Assembly (NCBI RefSeq): GCF_041053055.1
Contig: NZ_CP163443.1
Location: 5,687,001-5,751,000, forward strand
Length of the DNA: 64,000 nucleotides
Source: Streptomyces sp. R41
Lineage (GTDB): Bacteria; Actinomycetota; Actinomycetes; Streptomycetales; Streptomycetaceae
Direction: 5' to 3'
Made by a program: the position numbers and the translations under genes. Below, in pieces: positions 47,743 to 64,000 of this stretch. How positions within the stretch are numbered: the stretch's first letter is position 1; each line of letters starts with the position of its first letter. The notes beneath the pieces were generated by a model. That model worked only from the letters and a program-made list of their open reading frames with translations. It did no database searches and was not told the origin of the DNA.

Positions 47743-50700
47743 ATGACGCGAGCCGAGCAGCCAACGGCCCACAATCCGGCCCCCGACGACGCCCTGGTCG
47801 CAGATTCCCGCGAGCGCGCCGTCCGCGCGCTGCTGCGCCAGCCGCAGTTGAAGCGACTGTGGAGCGCACAGCTCGTAGGAGGTGTCGCCGACGCCCTGGC
47901 CCTCCTCGTGCTGGTCGTCCTGGCCCTCCAGGCGGCGATCTTCGAGGGTTCCTTCGGCGGTGGCTACCGGGGAGTGGCCTTCGCCGTGGCGGCCGTCTTC
48001 GGGGCACGCGTGCTCGCGACGCTGCTCTTCGGAGCCGTGCTCCTCGGGCCGCTCACCTCTCTGACCTCCCCGGAGGGGCCCCTCGACCGGCGCTGGACCA
48101 TGGTCGCAGCCGACGGTCTGCGGGCCGCGCTCCTCATCGTCGCGCCCCTGTGGATCGACTGGACCCCGGACGACGCGCTCGCCGTCCTCCTGGTCATCGC
48201 GTTCGTGACCGGTGTCGCCGAGCGGTTCTGGACGGTGTGCCGGGAGAGCGCGGCGCCCGCCCTGCTGCCCGTGCCGCCGCTGGAGGGCGCCACGGTGCGC
48301 CCGCTGCCGGACCACATGGACGCGCTGCGGCGCCTGTCGCTTCGTACGGCCTTCATGGCGGTGCCGCTCGCGGCCGCCACGCTCGTTGTGGTGTCGCTCG
48401 TCAACAATCTGCTGGGCGCCGGGATCGACTGGTTCGACCAGCACCAGGTGGCGCTCGCTTCGTACGTCGCGGCCGGACTGTTCGCCGCCTCGCTCTCGGT
48501 GCTCACGTTCCTCGAACTGCCCGACGCACGCACCCCCCGCGCGCGGTCGCCCCTCGAGGGGCTGCGCCGTCCCAAGACGGGCACCGGCGTCGACAAGGGC
48601 CGTACCGGCGCGATTCCGCTGCTGGTCCTGGCCTGCGCGGCGGTCGCCGGGGCCATCTCGGCCGCCGTCGCCGTCTCCGTGCTGCACGCCAAGGACCTGG
48701 GCGGCGGACCGGTGACGTACGGGCTGCTGGTGCTGGCCCTGACCGGGGGTGTCGTCATCGGCATCCGTACGGCCCCTTCGGTGCTGCCGTCGCTGTCGCG
48801 GCGCAGGCTGCTCGCACTGGCGATCGCCTTCACCGGGGTCGCGCTGCTGGCCGCAGGGCTGGTCCCGGACGTCACCACCGTGCTGCTGATCGTGGCCTTC
48901 GCGGGCATCGGCGCGGGCGTCGCCGCGAACACCGGGCACGCGCTGCTCGACCAGGAGGCCGAGGAGTACCGGCGGGCGCGGACGACCGAACATCTGCACG
49001 CGGTCGTACGGGTCTCCGTGGCGCTCGGCGCGCTGGCGGCGCCCCTGGTGGCCGCCGCGATCGGTCCGCACCGCCTGGAGAACGGCAAGTTCGTGTTCGC
49101 GCACGGGGGCGCCGCCTTCACGCTCATGCTGGTGGGCGCGCTGCTGCTGCCCGTCGCCGCGCTGGTGCTCGCCAAGGTCGACGACCGCTCCGGGGTGCCA
49201 CTGCGGCACGACCTGCTGGACGCGCTGCGCGGCGGCGACGACCCGGCGCAGGTGCCCGCCACGAACGGTTTCTTCATCGCCCTGGAGGGCGGCGACGGGG
49301 CCGGCAAGTCCACCCAGGCGACGGCGCTCGCCGAGTGGATCCGCGCCAAGGGCCACGAGGTCGTGGTGACCCGGGAGCCGGGCGCCACACCGGTCGGCAA
49401 GCGGCTGCGGTCGATCCTGCTGGACGTGTCCTCGGCGGGGCTTTCGCACCGCGCGGAGGCGCTGCTGTACGCCGCCGACCGCGCGGAGCACGTCGACACG
49501 GTGGTGCGGCCCGCGCTGGAGCGGGGCGCCATAGTCATCTCCGACCGGTACATCGACTCGTCCGTGGCCTACCAGGGCGCGGGACGCGACCTGTCTCCGA
49601 CGGAGATCGCCCGCATCAACCGGTGGGCGACGAACGGGCTCGTACCGCATCTGACGGTTCTGCTGGACGTGTCTCCTGAGGCGGCCCGCGAGCGGTTCAC
49701 GGAGGCGCCGGACCGGCTGGAGTCGGAGCCCGTCGAGTTCCACACGCGCGTGCGGTCCGGTTTCCTGACGCTCGCCGCCGCCGACCCGGGCCGGTACCTG
49801 GTCGTCGACGCGGCCCAGGAGCCCGAGGCGGTCACCACGGTCATCCGGCACCGGCTCGATGTGATGCTGCCCCTCTCCGAGGCCGAGGTGAAGGCCCAGG
49901 AGGAGGCCCGCAAGGCGGCCGAGGAGGAAGCCCGGCGCAAGGCGGAGGAAGAGGCCGCGCGCAAGGCGGAGGAGGAGCGGCTGGAGCGCGACCGTCAGGA
50001 GCAGCTCGCCAAGCTCCGTGCCGAGGAGGAGGAGCGCAAGCAGCGCGAGCTGGAGGAGGCCCAGCGGCGCGAGGCCGAGCGCCAGGCGGAGGAGGCCCGG
50101 CAGCGCGCCGAGGAGGCCCGCCGCCGTGCCGAGGAGGAGCGGGTCAGGCGTCTCGCCGAGGAGCAGGCGCGGGCCGCCGAGGAGGAGCGTCGGCGCAAGC
50201 AGGCCGAGGAGGAGGCGCGGCTGCGTGCCGAGGCCGAGGCGCGCCGCCTGGAGAAGCAGCGGAAGGCCGAGGAGGCCCTGCTGCGGGCCGAGGAGGCTCG
50301 GCGGGTGGCGACGGAGGCCGCGTCGGCGGCTGCGGCGGCTTCCGCCGAGGCCGCGGCGTCGACCGCGGTGGCGAACGCTACTGGGGCTCCGGCTGCTCCG
50401 GCCACCCCGGCTGCTCCGGCCGCCGCTCCCGCGCCGGACAACGAGACGACGGTGCCCACGCCCGTTGTGACGCCGTCGCACGCCTCGGGTGGGCCCGTGG
50501 ACGAGACGGCGGTGCTGCGGCCGGTGCGGGCGGGTGAGGGCCCTGGCGGTTCTCGGTCCGGCACGGGTGAAGTGCCTGCCGGTTCTCGGTCCGGCTCCCG
50601 GTCCGACGGGGAGGAGACGGCGAAGCTGCCGAAGCCGCCTGTGCCCGAGGGCGCGGCGGACGAGACGGCAGTGCTGCCGCCGGTGCCTTCCGGTGCGGCG

Positions 50701-51114
50701 GACGAGACGACGGTGCTTCCGCCCGTTGCCCCGGGTGCGGCGGACGAGACCGCCGTGCTGCCGCCCGTGGCTCAGGGCGCGGCCGATGAGACGGCGGTGC
50801 TTCCTCCGGTACGGGACGGGCGCGCGGGTGCGTCCACGGGTGCTCCCACGGCCGGTGCTCCCGCCGGTGATCCGGCGGACCGGGTACCGCCCGGCTTCTT
50901 CCGGGACGAGCGGGCGGCGCCGCGGCCGGACGGTCCCGGCGACCGTACGCGCGAGCTGCCCCAGGTCGACGACGCGGGCGCCCCGCGTCGCCGTCCCCGC
51001 TCCGACTGGGCCGAGGAGACTCCGCTGGACGACCTCCCGACCCTGGCCGACGAACTGCTGGGCCCGCGCGAGGACGACGACCGGGACGAGGGACGGGGCG
51101 GCCGCCGCCCCTGA
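47743..51114 (+). CDS. tmk: MFS-like membrane domain fused to thymidylate kinase
   Basis: A 1,123-residue fusion. Residues about 20-490 are an MFS-like membrane domain (10-12 helices) of unknown transport role. Residues 507-715 are thymidylate kinase (dTMP to dTDP): IALEGGDGAGKSTQ, the TREPG motif, DRYIDSSVAYQGAGR. Then about 170 residues of Ala/Glu/Arg-rich coiled coil and a Pro/Val tail with four 14-residue repeats (GAADETAVLPPV). Kinase residues look complete. ATG 47743 lies 6 nt after TAGGCT (47731-47736), so it is probably leaderless. It is followed after 124 bp by holB, the usual tmk neighbour. Confidence 0.92.
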   Translation: MTRAEQPTAHNPAPDDALVADSRERAVRALLRQPQLKRLWSAQLVGGVADALALLVLVVLALQAAIFEGSFGGGYRGVAFAVAAVFGARVLATLLFGAVLLGPLTSLTSPEGPLDRRWTMVAADGLRAALLIVAPLWIDWTPDDALAVLLVIAFVTGVAERFWTVCRESAAPALLPVPPLEGATVRPLPDHMDALRRLSLRTAFMAVPLAAATLVVVSLVNNLLGAGIDWFDQHQVALASYVAAGLFAASLSVLTFLELPDARTPRARSPLEGLRRPKTGTGVDKGRTGAIPLLVLACAAVAGAISAAVAVSVLHAKDLGGGPVTYGLLVLALTGGVVIGIRTAPSVLPSLSRRRLLALAIAFTGVALLAAGLVPDVTTVLLIVAFAGIGAGVAANTGHALLDQEAEEYRRARTTEHLHAVVRVSVALGALAAPLVAAAIGPHRLENGKFVFAHGGAAFTLMLVGALLLPVAALVLAKVDDRSGVPLRHDLLDALRGGDDPAQVPATNGFFIALEGGDGAGKSTQATALAEWIRAKGHEVVVTREPGATPVGKRLRSILLDVSSAGLSHRAEALLYAADRAEHVDTVVRPALERGAIVISDRYIDSSVAYQGAGRDLSPTEIARINRWATNGLVPHLTVLLDVSPEAARERFTEAPDRLESEPVEFHTRVRSGFLTLAAADPGRYLVVDAAQEPEAVTTVIRHRLDVMLPLSEAEVKAQEEARKAAEEEARRKAEEEAARKAEEERLERDRQEQLAKLRAEEEERKQRELEEAQRREAERQAEEARQRAEEARRRAEEERVRRLAEEQARAAEEERRRKQAEEEARLRAEAEARRLEKQRKAEEALLRAEEARRVATEAASAAAAASAEAAASTAVANATGAPAAPATPAAPAAAPAPDNETTVPTPVVTPSHASGGPVDETAVLRPVRAGEGPGGSRSGTGEVPAGSRSGSRSDGEETAKLPKPPVPEGAADETAVLPPVPSGAADETTVLPPVAPGAADETAVLPPVAQGAADETAVLPPVRDGRAGASTGAPTAGAPAGDPADRVPPGFFRDERAAPRPDGPGDRTRELPQVDDAGAPRRRPRSDWAEETPLDDLPTLADELLGPREDDDRDEGRGGRRP
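50651..50818. repeat. 42 bp in-frame repeats in the tmk tail
   Basis: Four 42 bp units encoding GAADETAVLPPVxx. Near-identical at protein level. Confidence 0.7.
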
Positions 51115-54400: not shown

Positions 54401-54474
54401 GCCGCCTTAGCTCAGATGGCCAGAGCAACGCACTCGTAATGCGTAGGTCTCGGGTTCGAATCCCGAAGGCGGCT
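54401..54474 (+). tRNA. tRNA-Thr (anticodon CGT)
   Basis: A complete cloverleaf: acceptor GCCGCCT/AGGCGGC, D arm GCTC/GAGC, anticodon stem ACGCA/TGCGT with loop CTCGTAA (anticodon CGT, codon ACG) and T arm TCGGG/CCCGA with TTCGAAT. CCA is not encoded. Its 3' half is a standard phage/ICE attachment site, and an integrase remnant lies just downstream. Confidence 0.97.
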
Positions 54475-54482
54475 CCGAGAAG

Positions 54483-54549: not shown

Positions 54550-54620
54550 TACTCATCGGGGCTCCGAGGTGCCCCGATGGGGCCCAATATGGGGCCCGCG
54601 CGGGTCCTGTTTGTCCGCCT

Positions 54621-55188
54621 TCAGTACCTTCTTCTTCGATGCCCGGTATGTGGTGATGGGGTCCAAGGGGGCTGAGAGGCCTTCGCGGCGTGCAACACCG
54701 TCTGGTACGTGGCGGTCGGCGTCCGCATCGAGGTGTGCCCGAGCATCGCCAGCACGGCCTTCAGCGTGACGCTGGCGGCCAGCGCCAGACTCTCGGCCTC
54801 GTGGCGGCCGTCGTTGAGCCGGATCGGTGGGAGGCCGTACAGCTCTACCAGCCGGTCCCAGCAGTCGGAGAAGAACTGCGGGTGGTGCGTCTTGCAGTTC
54901 GCCGACGCGGGCGCGGTGTTCCGGGCGGCGCGCGTTGTCGGAGACGATGCAGCCGGAGATACCTTGGGTGTGGCGGGCGCGAAGGTCGCGCATCTTGAGC
55001 ACGCCGAGGTGGGGGACCGGGTACAGCTCGATCCCGCGGCCGTACTCGTGGGCGGTGGTCCTCTTCGGCTCGGTCTTCTTCTCGTGCCAGTTCAGCAGGA
55101 ATTCCGCCACGGTCTCATCTGACAGGACGTTCACTCCGGCCGTGGAGGACCCGAGATCCACAGACTGCAGAATCGGCAGACCGACCAC
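54621..55188 (-). pseudogene. Decayed tyrosine recombinase (phage/ICE integrase)
   Basis: The minus strand carries pieces of a tyrosine integrase in different frames. The N-terminal SAM-like arm domain reads DETVAEFLLNWHEKK and GIELYPVPHLGVLKMRDL. The C-terminal catalytic piece, in another frame, reads IRLNDGRHEAESLALAA and LGHTSMRTPTATYQTVL with the nucleophile Tyr. The middle, including the first catalytic Arg, is deleted (about 200 residues missing), and the His of the HxxR box is Asn. It ends near the tRNA-Thr 3' end, the usual place for an integrase. It marks an old integration event. Confidence 0.8.
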
Positions 55189-55508: not shown

Positions 55509-58500
55509 TCAGTCGCGAACGTGTCGGATGTGCGCGGTGCGGCGCTTCCCTGAACCGTCCTCGTACTCCACCGGGATGCCGGTCTCGCGCCACAGCAAGG
55601 CAACTGCGAGTGGCGTGAACGGGCTGAGCGCCTGACCCTCCTCCGCGGCCGGGCCCTGAGAAGTGATCTCGTAGTCCTCGACAACTGTGGAGCCATCGAA
55701 GCTCAGGCCGACTAGGCGGCCGGGGGCCACCATCGCTCCCCCGGTTGCGCGAGGGGTGGCAGGGGTTGCCCTGAGGAAGCTCTCCAGGAAGGTGGCGCGC
55801 TCCTCGAGCTGTTCACGCCGCTTTTCCCATTTACGCCGGTTATCGGCGCGCACCCGGTAATCAGTGGCGGTGTCAAGGGGTTCCGGCTGCCGCAGGTACT
55901 CGCGTATCTGAGACAGCTCGTTCTCGACACGTTGCCAGGATGTCCTGGCCAACGCTGTCACCGGGTAGGTGGCGACAGAAGGGGACTCGCTATGCCGTGG
56001 AGTCGGCACGGTTCTGCGCTGCCGCGCGGTGGGACCGGAAGTTGGTGAAGTCCGGGTTCCGCCGCCCTGACCCGCAGAGGGCCGCCGCGCAGGCCCACTC
56101 TGTGGCTCGGCTCGTGACGACGACGCTTCCGGTTTCGCCGCGTCACCTTCAACCGCGCCCGCTGCGCTGGGGCTTGTATCAACGAGGGCTACCGCACGTT
56201 CGACGGCGGATCGCAGCCGGGCTTCGGCACCGGACCGGTCGCGGTACCAGTCGGTGCCCCAGATCCGGTGTAGCTCCCAGCCAAGCCCACGCAGCACTCC
56301 TTCGCGCAGCCGGTCACGGTCACGGGCTGCCTTCGAGGAGTGGTACATGGCGCCATCGCACTCCACCCCCAGCGCGTACAACCCCGGCCGGTGCGGATGC
56401 CGGACGCCCAGGTCGATGCGGTAGCCGGCGACGCCAACCTGAGGCTGCACGTCATAGCCCCAGCTGCGCAGCACCGCCAGCACAGATTCCTCGAACGGGC
56501 TCTCCGGCTGGGCGTCCGGGTCCACCGTCTCCTGGGAGAGCACAGACGGACCGCTCTGTGCGTACTGCAGGTAGCGGTGGAAGTACCGGAAGCTCTTGCT
56601 GCCGGTGTTCCCCGGCACCTCACCCGGGTCGAACGAGGCCACGACCTCCACGCGGTAGCGTGCGCGGGTCACGGCGACGTTCAGACGGCGCCAACCATCC
56701 GCCTTGTTCATGGGGCCGAAGTTCTTCGAAAACTTGCCGTGGGCGTCACGGCCGTACCCGACGGACAGGATCATGACGTCCCGCTCGTCGCCCTGCACAC
56801 TCTCCAGATTTTTGACGAAGAACCCGTTCAGCCGATCCTCGGAGAAGCACTCGTCGAGGTCGGGCCGAGTCCGGCGCGCCGCGTCCACGGCGTCCTGGAT
56901 CGCGACGGCCTGTGACTGGGACAGCGCGACCACGCCCAGCGATCTGCCCTTGCGAGTACTGAAGTGGTGGATCACCCGGCGGGCCACCTCCTCAGCCTCG
57001 CCTGGGTTGTTCCGAGCGGCTGCCCCGGAACGGTAGACGCCTTCCCTGGCGCGGTAGAAGGCGACGCCGACATCCGCACCCTCCGCGTGAGCCCCGGGGA
57101 AGGTGGTCATGGACTCGTCGTAGAACTCCCGGTTGCTGAAGGCAATCAGGTCCTCATGACGGCTGCGGTAGTGCCAGCGCAGCGACAAACTCTCCAGCAG
57201 CCCGCTCGCCTTGCACAGATCCAGCACGGAACGGAACTGATCGGGGGACTCCTCGTCCTCGCTGTCCTCCTCGTCATCGCCTGTGGAGGAGAAGAATTCG
57301 GTGGGCGGGAGCTGCTTCTGGTCACCAGCCACGATCAGTGCCCGACCACGGTAGACACAGTTGATTGCGTCCTGGGGCAGCACCTGCGACGCCTCGTCGA
57401 AGATCACCACATCGAAGACGAGGTCGGGCGGCAGGAATCGGCTGACTGTAAGCGGGCTCATCATGAAGCACGGCTTGATCAGCGGTACCGCCTCCCTGGC
57501 GGCTTCCAGGAGCTCTCTCACCGGCTTGTGCCGAGTCTTCTTCTCGCCCTCTCGTCTGAGCAACGCCGCACCCGGAGCGTCCGTGGTTCGAGGGCGACGA
57601 GCGTCACAGGTCTGGATGACGCGCGCACGAGCGTGGTTGGCCAGTCTCGCGTCCAGTTCCCGGAAGCCGGCCACCAAGTCATCGCGGTCCGCGGATCGTG
57701 GGGTTGCCAGCCGTGAATCACTGGACAGCTGGAGATCAGCCCAGGCGCGGAGAGCCGCACGTTCGACCAGAGCCGGGAAGTCGGCCGGAGCAATCCCGCG
57801 GCGTACCGCCCGGTCCACCAGATCACCCAGGCTCAGGTCGTCGAGGGCCCTGCGACCTTTGTCGTAGGCACGCCACTCGTCAGGGCCGCCCCGATCGCCG
57901 TCCAGGACCGCGAGCGCCTTCAAGGCCGAATCCTGGCCGCGGGAGAACGACTCACGGAGCTGCTCCGCACGTTCCGGACGAAACAGGTCCGCCAATGCCT
58001 CCGTGGCCCGTGCCCATGCACCTGCGGCGGCTTCCAGTTCGGTGTCGGCTTCCGCGCAGTAGAGGATCTCGGCGGCTGAAGCACTCAGTGGCACCCTGCT
58101 CTGAAGCCCGGACGCCTCACGCAGAGTGGTGATCCAATCGAGGGCGGCACTCAGGTCGGACAGGCTGGTGCTTCGGCCCGTGTAGAGGTCCCCGAGCAGT
58201 GCCCGGTCGTCTTCCGCCCTGGACTCGAACTCCACCGTGGCAGCGCGGGCTGCCCGTACGGCATGCACACCGGCGCGTGCTGCGGACAGAGTCCAGGTGC
58301 CCGGTGCCGCGGCCGCTCCTCCGCCCGCGACGGCGGTCTCCTCCACCATCCGCATCAGTTGCTCGGCCCCTCGCAGAGGTGCAACATGCGCGCGGCTCCA
58401 TTGAGCAGCGGCTCTGAGGCTTCCCGGTTCCAATTCGTACGACGGCCCCGCCACAGGTGGAAGGACGAGGGAGTCCCGCCACTCGGTCAGCCGGCCGGCT

Positions 58501-61160
58501 GCCCGTTCCGCGGTGTTCCTCGCGGCAGGGCGCGGTTGCCCTCCGAAAGCCACCTCGCGCGCCAGCGCATCTTGGTTCGTCACTCGGGGAGCGAGCCTGA
58601 GGATCTCATTGGCTCGCTTGATGAGGGAGTCCAGGCCATCGAAGTCGGTGTCTTCGCTCCGCCAGTGTGGACCGAGGACCGAAGCATGGCGACTGGCCTC
58701 GGCATTCAGTGTGCGTGCCGCCTGCTGCCAAGCCACCGCGACCGGAAGCGCGGCCACAACCGCCCTGGTGCATTTACCGCCGTCAGGGAGTAGCGACCTG
58801 ACCAACCGCCGGTCGGCGCGGCACGCTGCAGACAGCCTTCCGGTGATGGACCGATGCATGGTGGCAAACCGGTGCGTGACTTCTTCGAGGGAATCTTCCT
58901 GCAGCACCCGGTCCGTGAAAACCTCTTCGGCCTTCCTCCGAGTCTCGCGCAGCCGTGTCACCGCTTCACGCAGGACTTCTGCGGCGGTCCTGGCGTCGGC
59001 CGCTCCCTCACGGGTGAGCCATGCGGGCAGCGGTTTGGCGTCGTCAGGGTGTCCTGCAAGAACGCCGAGGTGGCCCAAACGGAGGGCGTCGTCGCAGGAC
59101 TCGGGGGCGGGCAAGCCGTACATCGCGGCAACGGCCGCCAGCGACTGGACCGCCTCGTCGAGTGCCGCGGCGTCTGACTCAAGGCGGTCACCGAGCTCAC
59201 GGGCGGCGTCAGCAGTGAGCACACCGATATCGATGGCCGGGGGCAGCACAGCCGACAGAGCGGTCTCCTCCGCACTCGGCGTGGGGTCCGCCTCGGGCGG
59301 CAACCGCTCCCATGCCGCGCCGAGTGTCTGTTCCGCCGAGCGTTCGGCTTCGATGACCTCGTCCAGACGGCGCCGGAAGCCCGCTATCGCTGTGGTCAGG
59401 CCCTGGCTATCGGCGGTCAGCCAGGGGTGCGGCAGTGACGGCCGAGCGCCCGCGACGTGTAGTAGCGCGGTCAGTCGGGCGGTGTCACGCGCTCCCTCCC
59501 AACCGAGTTCAGCGAGGAGAGCCGTGTGCGGCAGCAGCCTCGTATCGAGTTCGCCGAGGGCTTCGGTGGCGAGGTCAAGCGTCTGCAGTGGGTTACCAGC
59601 GTCCGTCAGCCCGTACCAGGAGAATGCCGTGCCTTCCAATGCCGGGCGCCACGACCTGCTGACCTGACGGGCTGCCACAGTCGCCCGGTCAAGTCCCTCG
59701 GCTGTGAGCGTCGCCGCCTCGAAGGTCGGGTCCGCGGGCAGCGGATGAGAACTGTCCAGTAGTGAGATCCTGCCCAGGACGTAGTGCAGGCTCATATCGA
59801 GCCCGCGTCGGCTGTCGTTCATCGCCGCCGCGTACCCGGAGAGTTCCTGGCGCAGTTGGCGAGCACGCTGAAGGTCGGCCCGGGCACCGCCCGACAAGAT
59901 GCGGCGAGGCGCTAGCAATGCCCCGCCGAGTTCCTGCGCCACTTGCTTCCGGCCCGTGTTGTTGCTGTGCAACGCCAAGACGTAGTCATCGAGACCGACA
60001 TCGCCCAGACGGTTGCGGACCACGTCCAAGGCAGCCGCCTTCTCGCTGACGAACAGTACGGTGCGGCCCTGCTCCAGCAGGCCCGCGATCATGTTGGTGA
60101 TCGTCTGGCTCTTGCCAGTGCCGGGCGGCCCGTCCATCACGAAACTGCGGCCCTCGATCGCAGCAGCGACGCACTGCCGCTGGGAAGAGTCCGCGTCGAG
60201 CACAAGCGGGGCTTTTTCGGGCGGCTGGATCTCGTCGATGCGATCGGTGTCGGCCGGTTCGAAGGCAAAGTTCCCTGGCGAGATGCCGGAGTCCGCGCCG
60301 AGCCCAATGGCGCGCACGAGGGCGCTTGCCTGCACCCGGTCGGCGTTGTCGAGGAGGTCCCGATACATGACCTCCTTGCTTGAGTTGAAGGTGTCCAACA
60401 CCACTCGGTTGGTGACTTTCCAGCCGCGCATGCCCGCCACCGCACGCCGGACCTGCGCGATCAGGGCGGGAATGTCACGTTGTTCCACCTGCTCGACGCG
60501 TGGCCAGTCAATGCCCAACTCGCCCATCTTGATGGCGAGGGCAGGGTTGAGAGCCGGCTCCTCATCTGTGTTGGCCTTCAAGACGTACGAGTCCCCGCGT
60601 CGCCGTTCCAGCACGACTGGCACTATCACCAACGGCGAACTGAAGCTCTTCTCGGCAGACGGGGCCGGCGTCCAATCGAGAAAGCCCACACCGAGATGAA
60701 GCACCCACAGGCCGTAGTCGTTGTACTTCTCCCGCGCGACCAGGGCGAGGCGACGCAGATGCCGGTCCTGTTCAGCCTGCGTGGTCTTGGACGTGGTGAG
60801 CGTGACAACGGGGCGGTTGCTGCCGACTCCTGCCCGGGATGCAGGGGTGTCGATTGGCCTGGCGCCAGTGGTGGAACCGGCAGGGACCACTCTCGCGGGC
60901 GGCGCCAACCCGCCCGACGACGCACTCTCATCCTCGGATCCCTCGCCGCGTACAGCAGAGAAGGCACAACCGCGGGAAAGCCCTTCCAGCACGGTGGACA
61001 ACCCGGGCTCGACCAAATCCGTACCTGCGGACGAGGAACGGCGCTGGTAGTTGAGCAGCCGGTTACGGAAGCTCAGATCGATGAGTGAGTCCCGCCATGA
61101 GGCGAGCAGCCTCTCCAGCCGAGCACGGTCCATGGAAGACCGCCTGCCTTGGAGGGTCAT
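55509..61160 (-). CDS. DUF4011/SF1 helicase-Vsr-like nuclease-GreA-like fusion
   Basis: A protein of about 1,883 residues. N-terminal DUF4011 signature WRDSLIDLSFRNRLLN near 25. Helicase domain: GPPGTGKSQT (about 343), a large helical insert to about 1,240, DEAS box VIFDEASQVLP (about 1,253), GDQKQLPPTEFF, QGDERDVMILS (about 1,457), NVAVTRAR (about 1,493). Nuclease of the Vsr/MTES_1575 kind at about 1,570-1,650 (YRIDLGV, GVECDGAMYH). Last 145 residues: a coiled coil then SPFTPLAVALLW and VEYEDGSGKRRTAHI, like GreA/GreB. ATG 61160 has AGGGAG 8 nt upstream; 61178 and 61133 are alternatives. Helicase-nucleases of this group occur in defence islands. Confidence 0.85.
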   Translation of the reverse strand: MTLQGRRSSMDRARLERLLASWRDSLIDLSFRNRLLNYQRRSSSAGTDLVEPGLSTVLEGLSRGCAFSAVRGEGSEDESASSGGLAPPARVVPAGSTTGARPIDTPASRAGVGSNRPVVTLTTSKTTQAEQDRHLRRLALVAREKYNDYGLWVLHLGVGFLDWTPAPSAEKSFSSPLVIVPVVLERRRGDSYVLKANTDEEPALNPALAIKMGELGIDWPRVEQVEQRDIPALIAQVRRAVAGMRGWKVTNRVVLDTFNSSKEVMYRDLLDNADRVQASALVRAIGLGADSGISPGNFAFEPADTDRIDEIQPPEKAPLVLDADSSQRQCVAAAIEGRSFVMDGPPGTGKSQTITNMIAGLLEQGRTVLFVSEKAAALDVVRNRLGDVGLDDYVLALHSNNTGRKQVAQELGGALLAPRRILSGGARADLQRARQLRQELSGYAAAMNDSRRGLDMSLHYVLGRISLLDSSHPLPADPTFEAATLTAEGLDRATVAARQVSRSWRPALEGTAFSWYGLTDAGNPLQTLDLATEALGELDTRLLPHTALLAELGWEGARDTARLTALLHVAGARPSLPHPWLTADSQGLTTAIAGFRRRLDEVIEAERSAEQTLGAAWERLPPEADPTPSAEETALSAVLPPAIDIGVLTADAARELGDRLESDAAALDEAVQSLAAVAAMYGLPAPESCDDALRLGHLGVLAGHPDDAKPLPAWLTREGAADARTAAEVLREAVTRLRETRRKAEEVFTDRVLQEDSLEEVTHRFATMHRSITGRLSAACRADRRLVRSLLPDGGKCTRAVVAALPVAVAWQQAARTLNAEASRHASVLGPHWRSEDTDFDGLDSLIKRANEILRLAPRVTNQDALAREVAFGGQPRPAARNTAERAAGRLTEWRDSLVLPPVAGPSYELEPGSLRAAAQWSRAHVAPLRGAEQLMRMVEETAVAGGGAAAAPGTWTLSAARAGVHAVRAARAATVEFESRAEDDRALLGDLYTGRSTSLSDLSAALDWITTLREASGLQSRVPLSASAAEILYCAEADTELEAAAGAWARATEALADLFRPERAEQLRESFSRGQDSALKALAVLDGDRGGPDEWRAYDKGRRALDDLSLGDLVDRAVRRGIAPADFPALVERAALRAWADLQLSSDSRLATPRSADRDDLVAGFRELDARLANHARARVIQTCDARRPRTTDAPGAALLRREGEKKTRHKPVRELLEAAREAVPLIKPCFMMSPLTVSRFLPPDLVFDVVIFDEASQVLPQDAINCVYRGRALIVAGDQKQLPPTEFFSSTGDDEEDSEDEESPDQFRSVLDLCKASGLLESLSLRWHYRSRHEDLIAFSNREFYDESMTTFPGAHAEGADVGVAFYRAREGVYRSGAAARNNPGEAEEVARRVIHHFSTRKGRSLGVVALSQSQAVAIQDAVDAARRTRPDLDECFSEDRLNGFFVKNLESVQGDERDVMILSVGYGRDAHGKFSKNFGPMNKADGWRRLNVAVTRARYRVEVVASFDPGEVPGNTGSKSFRYFHRYLQYAQSGPSVLSQETVDPDAQPESPFEESVLAVLRSWGYDVQPQVGVAGYRIDLGVRHPHRPGLYALGVECDGAMYHSSKAARDRDRLREGVLRGLGWELHRIWGTDWYRDRSGAEARLRSAVERAVALVDTSPSAAGAVEGDAAKPEASSSRAEPQSGPARRPSAGQGGGTRTSPTSGPTARQRRTVPTPRHSESPSVATYPVTALARTSWQRVENELSQIREYLRQPEPLDTATDYRVRADNRRKWEKRREQLEERATFLESFLRATPATPRATGGAMVAPGRLVGLSFDGSTVVEDYEITSQGPAAEEGQALSPFTPLAVALLWRETGIPVEYEDGSGKRRTAHIRHVRD

Positions 61161-61588
61161 AAAGCGCAACTCCCTCATTGATGAAGAGGTCGTGAAGGCA
61201 TTAGACGAAATGGGTGAAGCATAGCGGCGCGTCGCAACGACGTCTGGAGGGACGGCACAGGACGACTCTCCCCATGCCAGGGCTCTGGAGGATGGAGAAG
61301 AGGCTTGCCTACCAACATGAGTGAGGAGGCCATGGAAGGACGGCCCTTCCGCACAACGTCATGCCACTCCGGAGCCGTAGACCTCGCACCCGCCCAACGA
61401 GGCAATTCCGCCCCCACCTTCTGCCACAGCGCGTGAAGCGGTCGCCGACACCATCGACAGGGGTGGAGTTGGCCTCGATTGGCAGGCGGCGTACCACTGC
61501 TGTTCTGGGCTGCGTGGTGTTGGTCTCGAGGCCGGGTGAAATCCGACCGGTGAACGGCGGGCCAAAGGTGACCTCGATGACCAAACAG
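61161..61588. other. Gap between the helicase fusion and the small partner gene
   Basis: 428 bp. Several short frames on both strands, none convincing. It presumably contains the promoter of the helicase fusion on the minus strand. Base composition is lower in GC than the tad region. Confidence 0.4.
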
Positions 61589-62002
61589 TCAGGGAACGTC
61601 AAGCGTCCGGACGAGCTCGCCGACCTCCGTGCGCCAGGCGCGGACTTGCTCGTAGGTGGGGCCGATCTCGTACTGGTGGTAGTGGCACCCCAGGCACAGG
61701 TGCGACCAGACGGCGCGGGTCCGTCGGGCAGTCTCCTCAGGGGTGTAGCAACGCAAGCAGAGCATCTTGGCCCGCATGGTGGTGCGGGCGAGTCCCGGTA
61801 CCGCTGCGTCGAGCACCCGGTCCACGCAGATCTCCAGGGCAGTCCGTAGAGCCAGTGAAGCTCCGCGGTGACGGCCGGCAGCCGTGGCACCGCGGAGGTC
61901 GCCGTCGAGCATCCGGTCCGCCGTCAGCAGGAGGTCTTCGACGGAGGCGGGGGAAGCAGGTGCTGCGGATACGGAGGGTGAGGATGCAGCGGAGGCACTC
62001 AT
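61589..62002 (-). CDS. Small Cys-rich partner of the SMC-like ATPase (HEPN-like?)
   Basis: 137 residues, mostly helical. After a low-complexity N-terminus (SASAASSPSVSAAPASPASV), the body has ALEICVDRVLDAAV, CLRCYTPEE and HLCLGCHYHQYEIGPTYEQ. The Cys and His could bind metal. RAVWSH (about 97-102) fits the R-x4-H pattern of HEPN RNases, but by itself this is weak evidence. The ATG overlaps the stop of the upstream ATPase by 4 nt (ATGA), so the two are made together. I recognise no named family. Confidence 0.7.
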   Translation of the reverse strand: MSASAASSPSVSAAPASPASVEDLLLTADRMLDGDLRGATAAGRHRGASLALRTALEICVDRVLDAAVPGLARTTMRAKMLCLRCYTPEETARRTRAVWSHLCLGCHYHQYEIGPTYEQVRAWRTEVGELVRTLDVP

Positions 62003-64000
62003 CGGGCGCTCCCCTCCGGCTTGCGCACCTTCTGCGCCAGAGCCTCGACGTCCTGGACGAAACGGCGCGCGTCGGTGATCTGCGCTCCTGCGGCGTGGGC
62101 TCCTCTCTGGCACTGCTTGATGAGGTAGGCCGCCTGCGCTCCGTAGCGGTTTCTCACTTCCTCGTCGACGTCGCGGATCCGTGTGATGTCGCCGAACAGG
62201 GCGAGCGCCGCGACCTTCGTGAACTTCTCGGCGTCGTCAACGGCGGCGTGCAATTCCTGCTCAGGTCCGCCGGAGAGGTGGTGCTTGATCCACGCGGCTT
62301 CCAAGAAGGCATTCTCCAAGGCGATACGGCACAGGCTGGGCAGCACATGGGTCCGGGCCGCCAGCGGCAAGTCCGGGGTGCGGACGATGGCCATCGCGTC
62401 GGCGATCGCCTGCGCGACCGGGTCGGTCACTCGCTCGACCTTCACCCTCGAGGCCTTGCTCCGCTCGACCTGGAACACCGTCACCGGCAACTCCTGGCTC
62501 GTGAACGCCCGCTGGAGCCGGGTGTCGTGGGTGAACACGACGACCTGTCGGTGCTTGCCGAGCTCGTGCAGGACCTGAGCGAGCCCGTTGACCTTGGCGG
62601 GATCCATGGACTGCACCGGGTCGTCGACGACTATGAAACCGAACGGGCTGTCGGCCGTAACGGCGCGGGGCAGGAACAGTGACAGCGCGAGGGAGTGCAG
62701 CTCGCCCTGGCTCATGACGCCCAGCGCCGAGGCGTCCTGGCCGTCGACGGAGACGTCCATGACGAGCTTGCGTACGGTGGCCTTCTCGCTGCCGCGCAGG
62801 CTCACACCGTTGAGGTCGATGTTGCTCTCCTGGCGGAGCTTCTCCCAGATGCGCTGCGACTGGTCGGCGAAGCCCTCCATGCGCCGCTCCCGCAGCTCGG
62901 TGCTCAGTGCCTTGATCCAGGCACGGGCCCGCCGGATGTCTCTCAGCCGGGGATCGCTCTCCTTCGCGGCACGGGCCCGCTCCGCCCAGCCGGCCAGGCG
63001 GGTGACGAGCCGGCGCCAGCGTTCGTCCCGCTTCTCCAGCTCCCTCGTGGCGTTCTCTCTCACCGCGGCGCAAGCGTCAGCCAGCGTCCCGGCCGCCTCG
63101 TGGGCGCGCCGGACGAGCTCGCCCGGATCGCTGACCGTGCGGCAGGCGGCCCAGGCGTCCCACGGGTCGGTCAACGCGGCCGGGATCCGCTGGGGCCTGT
63201 GCACGAGGTCCTGCAGGACACGCACCGCCGACCGCAGTGCGCTGCGCGCGTCGTCGGCGGCCCTGGCTTCCTGCCGCAGTACGGCGATCTGCGCGGCGGC
63301 ACGCGCGGCCCACTCCCCGTCCAGGACGCGGTCCGTTCCGCAGACCGGGCAGGACCTCTCGTCGGGGTGCCGGTCGATGTGGGCCAGAGCCCTGGCGAGG
63401 AGGTCGGCGCGCTGGTGAGCGTCCTCGGCGCTCGTGCCGCGGACGTCCTCGGCATCGGCGAGGGCCTTGCGCAGCCCGACCACTGCGGCGGCGACCTGCT
63501 CCATGTCGGGGCCCTGCACGGCGACCGCGACCCGCAGCTCGGCGAGAAGGCCCTCGTCGGTGTCGGCGGGCAGTCCCGCCACCAGTGCCTCGACGGTGTC
63601 GAAGTCCGGGCTGCCCGGGGTGTCGATGGCCAGGAGGGCCTGCACTGCCCGCTCGTCGTCCTCCAGCGTGTACAGGGCGTCCACGAGTTCCGGGACTTCC
63701 GCCTTCGCCGCCTTCGCCGCGTCGTCGAGTACTTTCTCCTCCGCGCGAAGCCGGCTGTCCGCCGCGCTGAGATGCCGCAGGCCGAGGATAGTGGCGATGG
63801 CGTCGTACATCTCGGAGGGCTTGCCGCTGATCATGCGGTCGAGATCGACGTACGACAGAAAGGGCCGGTAGTCCTCCATGGCCTGCTTCCAGGCCACCTG
63901 GTCGAGAGGGACTCGTCCGTGTCCGGGCCGCTTGAACTCTGCCTGGGAGCCGCCGAAGTCCTCGCTCTCCCACGTGCGGGTGAGCGTGCTGCGGCCGGTG
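61999..64000 (-). CDS. SMC/Rad50/RloC-like ATPase with CxxC hook, partial
   Basis: 667 residues visible; the 5' end, with Walker A, is beyond the right edge and the frame is open to 64000. CPVCGTDRV (about residue 215 of the visible part) is a zinc-hook-like CxxC at a coiled-coil tip. The ABC signature SQGELHSLALSLF, Walker B FIVVDDPVQSMDP and H-loop VVVFTHDTRLQ are intact. Helical segments of about 100-150 residues flank the hook. The C-terminal 170 residues after the ATPase have no recognised domain; RIALE and IKHHLSG are candidates for an effector. It most resembles RloC/AAA_13 defence ATPases. Confidence 0.85.
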   Translation of the reverse strand, partial: TGRSTLTRTWESEDFGGSQAEFKRPGHGRVPLDQVAWKQAMEDYRPFLSYVDLDRMISGKPSEMYDAIATILGLRHLSAADSRLRAEEKVLDDAAKAAKAEVPELVDALYTLEDDERAVQALLAIDTPGSPDFDTVEALVAGLPADTDEGLLAELRVAVAVQGPDMEQVAAAVVGLRKALADAEDVRGTSAEDAHQRADLLARALAHIDRHPDERSCPVCGTDRVLDGEWAARAAAQIAVLRQEARAADDARSALRSAVRVLQDLVHRPQRIPAALTDPWDAWAACRTVSDPGELVRRAHEAAGTLADACAAVRENATRELEKRDERWRRLVTRLAGWAERARAAKESDPRLRDIRRARAWIKALSTELRERRMEGFADQSQRIWEKLRQESNIDLNGVSLRGSEKATVRKLVMDVSVDGQDASALGVMSQGELHSLALSLFLPRAVTADSPFGFIVVDDPVQSMDPAKVNGLAQVLHELGKHRQVVVFTHDTRLQRAFTSQELPVTVFQVERSKASRVKVERVTDPVAQAIADAMAIVRTPDLPLAARTHVLPSLCRIALENAFLEAAWIKHHLSGGPEQELHAAVDDAEKFTKVAALALFGDITRIRDVDEEVRNRYGAQAAYLIKQCQRGAHAAGAQITDARRFVQDVEALAQKVRKPEGSAR

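Follow-up and report, generated by a model that had tools for sequence, protein, structure and literature searches.

A Gre-family tail on a defence-type helicase-nuclease of Streptomyces: a candidate RNA polymerase-docking module shared by two distant protein cores

What allows large one-protein defence helicase-nucleases, ProA, PDC-S37, and Hhe among them, to distinguish foreign DNA from the cell's own is, to our knowledge, an open question. A gene on the minus strand of a 64,000-nucleotide stretch of Streptomyces sp. R41 DNA (NZ_CP163443.1, positions 5,687,001 to 5,751,000; this whole stretch is referred to as the window) raises it in a particular form. An earlier note on this DNA proposed that the encoded protein joins a superfamily 1 (SF1) helicase, a Vsr-type nuclease, and a C-terminal Gre-family domain, here called the tail; Pfam, tail profiles, and Foldseek confirm this layout. 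What, then, does a Gre-family domain do on such a protein?

Taken as a single sequence, the C-terminal 155 residues give weak matches to PRK05892 (5.2e-5) and to GreA TIGR01462 (9.6e-4), and the match to PF01272 (E 0.043; 14.2 bits versus a gathering score of 26.9) falls below the cut-off, while several fused relatives carry PF01272. Profiles built from the fused tails match GreA strongly. A profile from fused tails alone aligns 38 standalone GreA-length frames (42 loci) at E <=1e-5, mostly over their full length, and profile A1, made from 25 fused tails, matches 275 of the 293 genomes of Streptomycetales. Among the matches listed, those below the fused copies are frames of ~155-350 amino acids with E-values of 3e-13 to 3e-11; they mostly span profile positions 40-145, with helix 1 often unaligned. 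Profile A2, used for the search of the phylum, includes one standalone row (P0042), and the GreA match was repeated without it. The phylum search listed one frame of 1062 amino acids (in genome G592) and several of 400-800 amino acids. Thus, the tail profiles retrieve standalone GreA throughout the order and the phylum (Actinomycetota).

The structural comparison agrees with the profiles. In the Foldseek search, Gre-family structures occupy ranks 1-14 and HelD follows at ranks 15-16 with weak E-values, and Gfh1 is the best solved relative both by sequence profile (E 3.2e-4) and by superposition of the lobe, on which FKBP-type proteins also superpose. The Gre fold, i.e., a helical hairpin followed by an FKBP-like lobe, is present in the predicted model, where the relative angle of the two parts is unsure; the hairpin has a short helix 1 of 19 residues, a loop of 10, and then 31 residues. 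The tail is homologous to the Gre family, and a chance resemblance is unlikely because the profile matches to GreA are strong. The single-sequence PF01272 score is the one observation that would favor chance, or an artefact of gene fusion. Against either stand 60 distinct tails on long proteins (a set picked partly with the tail, hence not a frequency), the presence of the fusion in many named species, and the retrieval of GreA by fused tails alone, so that we consider this explanation extremely improbable. Moreover, the earlier note had named two observations that would tell against its proposal, no structural similarity to Gre factors and absence of the region from all homologues; neither holds, since a Gre-family match was obtained and many homologues carry the same fusion. 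Some members bear the automatic JGI name 'transcription elongation GreA/GreB family factor/very-short-patch-repair endonuclease', which indicates that the fusion is already visible to annotation pipelines.

The residues that are kept and lost suggest which Gre function may remain. None of the 68 distinct fused tails contains the cleavage motif DLxEN, which all 36 distinct standalone GreA have. A looser acidic-tip pattern recovers 2 of the 68 tails, and another pattern 1 of 60; a tip of the D-x-x-x-D type is present in 22/68, the window tail included. On these grounds, a catalytic Gre factor acting by RNA cleavage was rejected, and the acidic residues near the turn, which the earlier note had pointed to, do not form a canonical catalytic tip. 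The position of MtbGre Ser127, on the other hand, is Ser or Thr in 66/68 fused tails (Thr in the window). In the remaining two, P0055 has Ala and the tail of locus L094 escapes the pattern, its SPSSPLG motif giving Ser by eye; a different pattern reads 58/60 as Ser or Thr, one as Lys, and one as Ala. In standalone GreA, the same position is Ser in 33 of 36, Ala in one, and unread by the pattern in two. PMC3132773 states that in MtbGre the D43N change abolishes cleavage activity, and that S127E abolishes both activity and RNA polymerase binding. According to PMC4598747, a short coiled coil does not keep Rnk from binding RNA polymerase or from competing with Gre factors. The residues retained and lost are those expected of a module for docking, not of a factor for cleavage. 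An attempt to derive hairpin length from a spacing pattern was discarded as unreliable, as it caught different arginines and left two rows unparsed. In summary, the window tail has the fold, C-lobe, and RNA polymerase-binding Ser/Thr in common with GreA/GreB, Gfh1, Rnk, and Rv3788, and differs from them in its fusion to a helicase-nuclease, its lack of DLxEN, and, in the model, its short helix 1.

The core to which the tail is joined is of a known kind. The protein scores 1059.1 bits against the NCBIfam ProA model NF058533 (cut-off 1500, not reached), 1144 bits against PADLOC PDC-S37, and 773.7 bits against Hhe NF042953 (cut-off 2000, not reached). Like ProA and PDC-S37, it combines DUF4011, an SF1 helicase, and the MTES_1575 nuclease on a single chain, and it shares its core type with Hhe, whose best match ends ahead of the tail; Klebsiella plasmids carry relatives annotated hhe. 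The core is accordingly that of a ProA/PDC-S37/Hhe-type defence helicase-nuclease, apparently a single-gene system. Among the best 120 of 7979 relatives, named Streptomyces proteins reach 95% identity to the window protein, the closest relatives are Gre-tailed, and from P0061 onward they are DUF3320-tailed. The match to the ProA profile ends at 1763 for the window protein and at 1734 for the Gre-tailed P0047 of its lineage, whereas it reaches 1903 of 1903 in the DUF3320-tailed P0061 and P0082, although these two are likewise under the ProA cut-off (1136 and 1160 bits). PF11784 (DUF3320) is absent from the Pfam matches of the window protein, in which the part of ProA that matches DUF3320 has no counterpart and the Gre domain stands instead. 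Hence, the C-terminal slot is exchanged, with a winged helix (DUF3320) in ProA-like relatives and a Gre-family domain here.

The text of PMC3710099 describes the MTES_1575 family, whose Vsr-type restriction endonuclease domain the window protein shares, as fused elsewhere to HEPN, transglutaminase, and winged-helix domains, the last overlapping DUF3320; the word GreA does not appear in that text. Among the entries listed by our literature searches, which covered titles and abstract openings, mostly from openly available journals, there was no recognisable paper on a Gre-helicase-nuclease fusion and no description of tail exchange with DUF3320 or of tail reuse. Nor did we find a paper on ProA, a name known to us from NCBIfam only. 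The earlier statement that no named defence system has this layout is incomplete: ProA, PDC-S37, and Hhe are named systems with a closely similar core, and only the tail is new.

The tail also occurs on a second core. It is present in 62 of the 143 long proteins that we compared, in whose selection the tail itself played a part, and its carriers belong to two core lineages. In core lineage I (the DUF4011 type), Gre-tailed members are 56-93% identical to the window protein among the matches listed, and lineage II is 28-31% identical to it across ~450-480 residues of helicase and nuclease. The tail is present in 8 of 80 named-genome loci with a lineage II core (the best 80 of 393 relatives), all eight in Streptomyces; at least two lineage II loci, L096 and L130, run into the end of a contig, where a tail could be unseen. 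The nearest tailless relatives, from Thermobifida and Nocardiopsis, are 68-70% identical to the query core and end directly after the nuclease. Weak Gre-profile matches within the helicase at L106 and L116 (E ~0.001) are read as chance. A quick core tree, which took in 34 of 72 tailless lineage II loci and 9 of 80 DUF3320-type proteins, places the two lineages far apart (support 100, branch length 3.72). In a quick tail tree, one branch (support 98) separates 24/24 tails from 34 GreA plus P0042. A careful tree with 19 tails and 12 GreA rows drawn from those 24 and 34, without the near copies P0002 and P0050, the long branches L042, L093, and L094, and P0042, separates all 19 tails of both cores from the 12 GreA with support 100/100. 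The tail of L042 is the least certain member, as it is drawn beside GreA at the midpoint root of the quick tree. One tail family is common to two distant cores.

Either transfer or old ancestry with loss elsewhere could have produced this sharing, and the data fit both. Either direction of exchange would fit the trees, which have no root and in which the DUF3320-tailed proteins of lineage I fall within the Gre-tailed ones. P0046 (2014 amino acids) combines a lineage I core with a tail that falls with those of class C, from lineage II (93/82). It was set aside as proof of tail transfer and is suggestive only, as a single clade of lineage I tails is compatible with the AU (approximately unbiased) test (p 0.237). 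By eye, the extra stretch ahead of its tail resembles one in P0034 and P0038, and P0046 is possibly a chimera. A phage origin of the tail was dropped: among 50,697 phage records, the single tail sequence had no tblastn match at E 0.01, a search in which a distant relative could be missed. The fused tail occurs in at least 17 of the 293 Streptomycetales genomes; a ProA-type core at E <=1e-50 occurs in 44, which include all 17, with tail and core adjacent. One of these genomes, G139, is counted among the 17 and excluded from the 68 tails; at its locus L050, the core reading frame is 1862 amino acids long and the Gre tail lies in another frame, a broken gene or an assembly error.

The features of the locus are collected in Table 1, where residue numbers follow the 1889-residue version of the protein (subtract 6 for the numbering of the earlier note). 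The minus-strand reading frame 55509-61178 is uninterrupted, with 1889 codons counted from the first ATG. The ATG at 61160, from which the earlier note had also started the protein, is preferred because the homologues P0002, P0013, and P0021 start at residue 7 of the window protein and GGGAG lies 9 bases upstream; it is likely the true start. The AAA_11 and AAA_12 matches fall between residues 330 and 1515. DEASQ at residue 1261 lies ahead of the second helicase part, inside which are QGDERD (1462) and NVAVTRAR (1500), and the nuclease has RIDL at 1587 and VECDG at 1605. We take GPPGTGKS to be the Walker A motif, and the roles of all helicase and nuclease motifs are presumed in the same way. 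Between the nuclease match and the tail lie ~85 residues, 60 of which form a linker that is probably flexible because of its Pro/Gly/Ser/Ala/Thr-rich composition.

Table 1. Features of the helicase-nuclease gene and its flanks in the window
Feature	Residues	Coordinates	Strand	Basis or remark
Whole gene	1883 from ATG at 61160; 1889 from upstream ATG at 61178	55509..61160	minus	
DUF4011 N-terminal domain	32-217	60528..61085	minus	PF13195, E 1.4e-24
SF1 helicase, first part (AAA_11)	330-393	60000..60191	minus	PF13086; GPPGTGKS at residue 350
SF1 helicase, second part (AAA_12)	1329-1515	56634..57194	minus	PF13087
MTES_1575 Vsr-type restriction endonuclease domain	1562-1658	56205..56495	minus	PF18741, E 2.9e-36
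Linker	1676-1735	55974..56153	minus	65% Pro, Gly, Ser, Ala, Thr
Gre-family tail: helical hairpin, then FKBP-like lobe	1744-1889	55512..55949	minus	profiles, Foldseek, superposition
Hairpin tip DTATD, in place of GreA DLxEN	Asp1769, Asp1773	55860..55874	minus	
Thr in LSPFTPL, at MtbGre Ser127 position	Thr1855	55614..55616	minus	
tRNA-Thr (CGT)		54401..54476	plus	adjoins gene; probable integration hotspot
Integrase remnant (phage integrase SAM-like N-terminal domain)		54553..55188	minus	PF14659, E 3.8e-4; 21.1 bits vs cut-off 22.6

In G201, another genome of the genus, a lineage II tailed protein is located at tRNA-Thr(CGT) (L040:9716-14519) with the same flanking genes. Thus, both core lineages use one hotspot, a shared site that would help tail exchange. 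The core family and the neighbors suggest an anti-phage role for the gene. The neighbors vary from locus to locus, and those associated with defence include a type I methyltransferase, a SAVED-PDDEXK effector, a type IIG enzyme, GmrSD beside a UvrD-like helicase, and an SNF2/NOV_C helicase with DUF1156. Two observations weigh against defence surroundings: four of ten neighbors scanned have no PADLOC match at 1e-8, and the Pfam matches of the neighbors at L037 are carboxypeptidase-like and ATP-grasp proteins. Ten loci of the genus (L043-L052) are read as a conserved chromosomal defence locus; among the 17 loci compared, 9 have the UvrD-like helicase family and 8 have GmrSD, with one member of each annotated, both at L045.

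Upstream of the gene in the window (61999-64000, continuing at L002:8000-14365 and L002:14744-16897) are an SMC/LmuB-like ATPase (882 amino acids), a DndB-like protein, and a type I methyltransferase. These were set aside as operon partners, as other lineage I loci do not share them: no common neighbor family was found at L037, L038, L039, and L053 with a crude gene finder of our own and blastp at 1e-8, and L041, only 4996 bases long, is uninformative. A small reading frame at 61589-62113 has no Pfam match. Elsewhere in the window, 47743-51114 is a single reading frame in which, by eye, a seemingly membrane-transporter-like N-terminus is joined to a thymidylate kinase-like part.

How might the tail serve such an enzyme? 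The best explanation, to which we give about an even chance, is that it tethers the helicase-nuclease to RNA polymerase without RNA cleavage. The tail would dock at the rim of the secondary channel without stimulating RNA cleavage, and docking would bring the helicase and the nuclease to DNA under transcription. Unwinding and cutting may then be licensed by a state specific to phage, such as intense transcription, a stalled or hijacked polymerase, or exposed ends next to the polymerase. We infer docking, activation by the state of transcription, and protection against phage, as well as the targeting of stalled or foreign transcription complexes that the earlier note suggested. A working precedent is HelD, a helicase-like NTPase that, according to PMC7749165, invades RNA polymerase by a Gre-like module entering the secondary channel. 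HelD has an N-terminal Gre-like arm as well as a main-channel arm and recycles RNA polymerase; the Gre part of the window protein is C-terminal. HelD is not known to carry a nuclease or to act in defence. No HelD family is among the Pfam and NCBIfam matches of the window protein, although one could have been missed. A link between Gre factors and defence is described in a preprint (PMC13174585), where GreA is needed for DRT3 defence, which is lost without greA.

The same evidence of binding, i.e., the Foldseek ranks and the kept Ser/Thr, would also suit a tail that acts as a sensor on the host RNA polymerase, such that the helicase-nuclease is set free or switched on when phage factors occupy or remodel the secondary channel. 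The DRT3 result, with GreA as a host requirement for defence, is in keeping with such a guard, for which there is no known trigger; moreover, the tips vary much among the tails and no conserved sensing surface is seen there. We regard a guard as unlikely. It is rather more doubtful that the tail no longer binds RNA polymerase and that its FKBP-like lobe has a different protein partner or serves the enzyme in a structural or regulatory way. The superposition of FKBP-type proteins and the lineage II relatives that stop after the nuclease are compatible with this possibility, but the RNA polymerase-binding Ser/Thr is kept while the tip motif is gone, and one tail is found on two cores.

Alternatively, the tail itself could act as the effector: once activated, it would block RNA polymerase in the way of a Gfh1/Rv3788-like inhibitor and so arrest growth. 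The rank of Gfh1 as best solved relative points this way, and PMC4598747 states that Gfh1 and Rv3788 inhibit catalysis and that Rv3788 requires its two acidic residues. The clade of the window protein retains two Asp in the tip, the pattern counted in 22/68 tails. The fused family as a whole does not conserve these tip acids, however, helix 1 is short in the model, and an effector is already present as the nuclease, which makes an inhibitor decidedly improbable. Docking without cleavage thus remains our preferred explanation.

In a wider sense, we tentatively suggest, at somewhat less than an even chance, that Streptomycetales hold a dedicated Gre-derived RNA polymerase-docking tail without RNA cleavage that has moved between distant helicase-nuclease cores, a branch of transcription-coupled immunity. 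If so, these nucleases would locate foreign DNA through the RNA polymerase at work on it, either travelling with the polymerase or keeping watch over it, and the HelD-like invasion of RNA polymerase would enter immunity. The tail points to a likely partner, RNA polymerase, and to a residue to change, Thr1855, and so the question of how self is told from foreign becomes one for a pull-down and a plaque assay.
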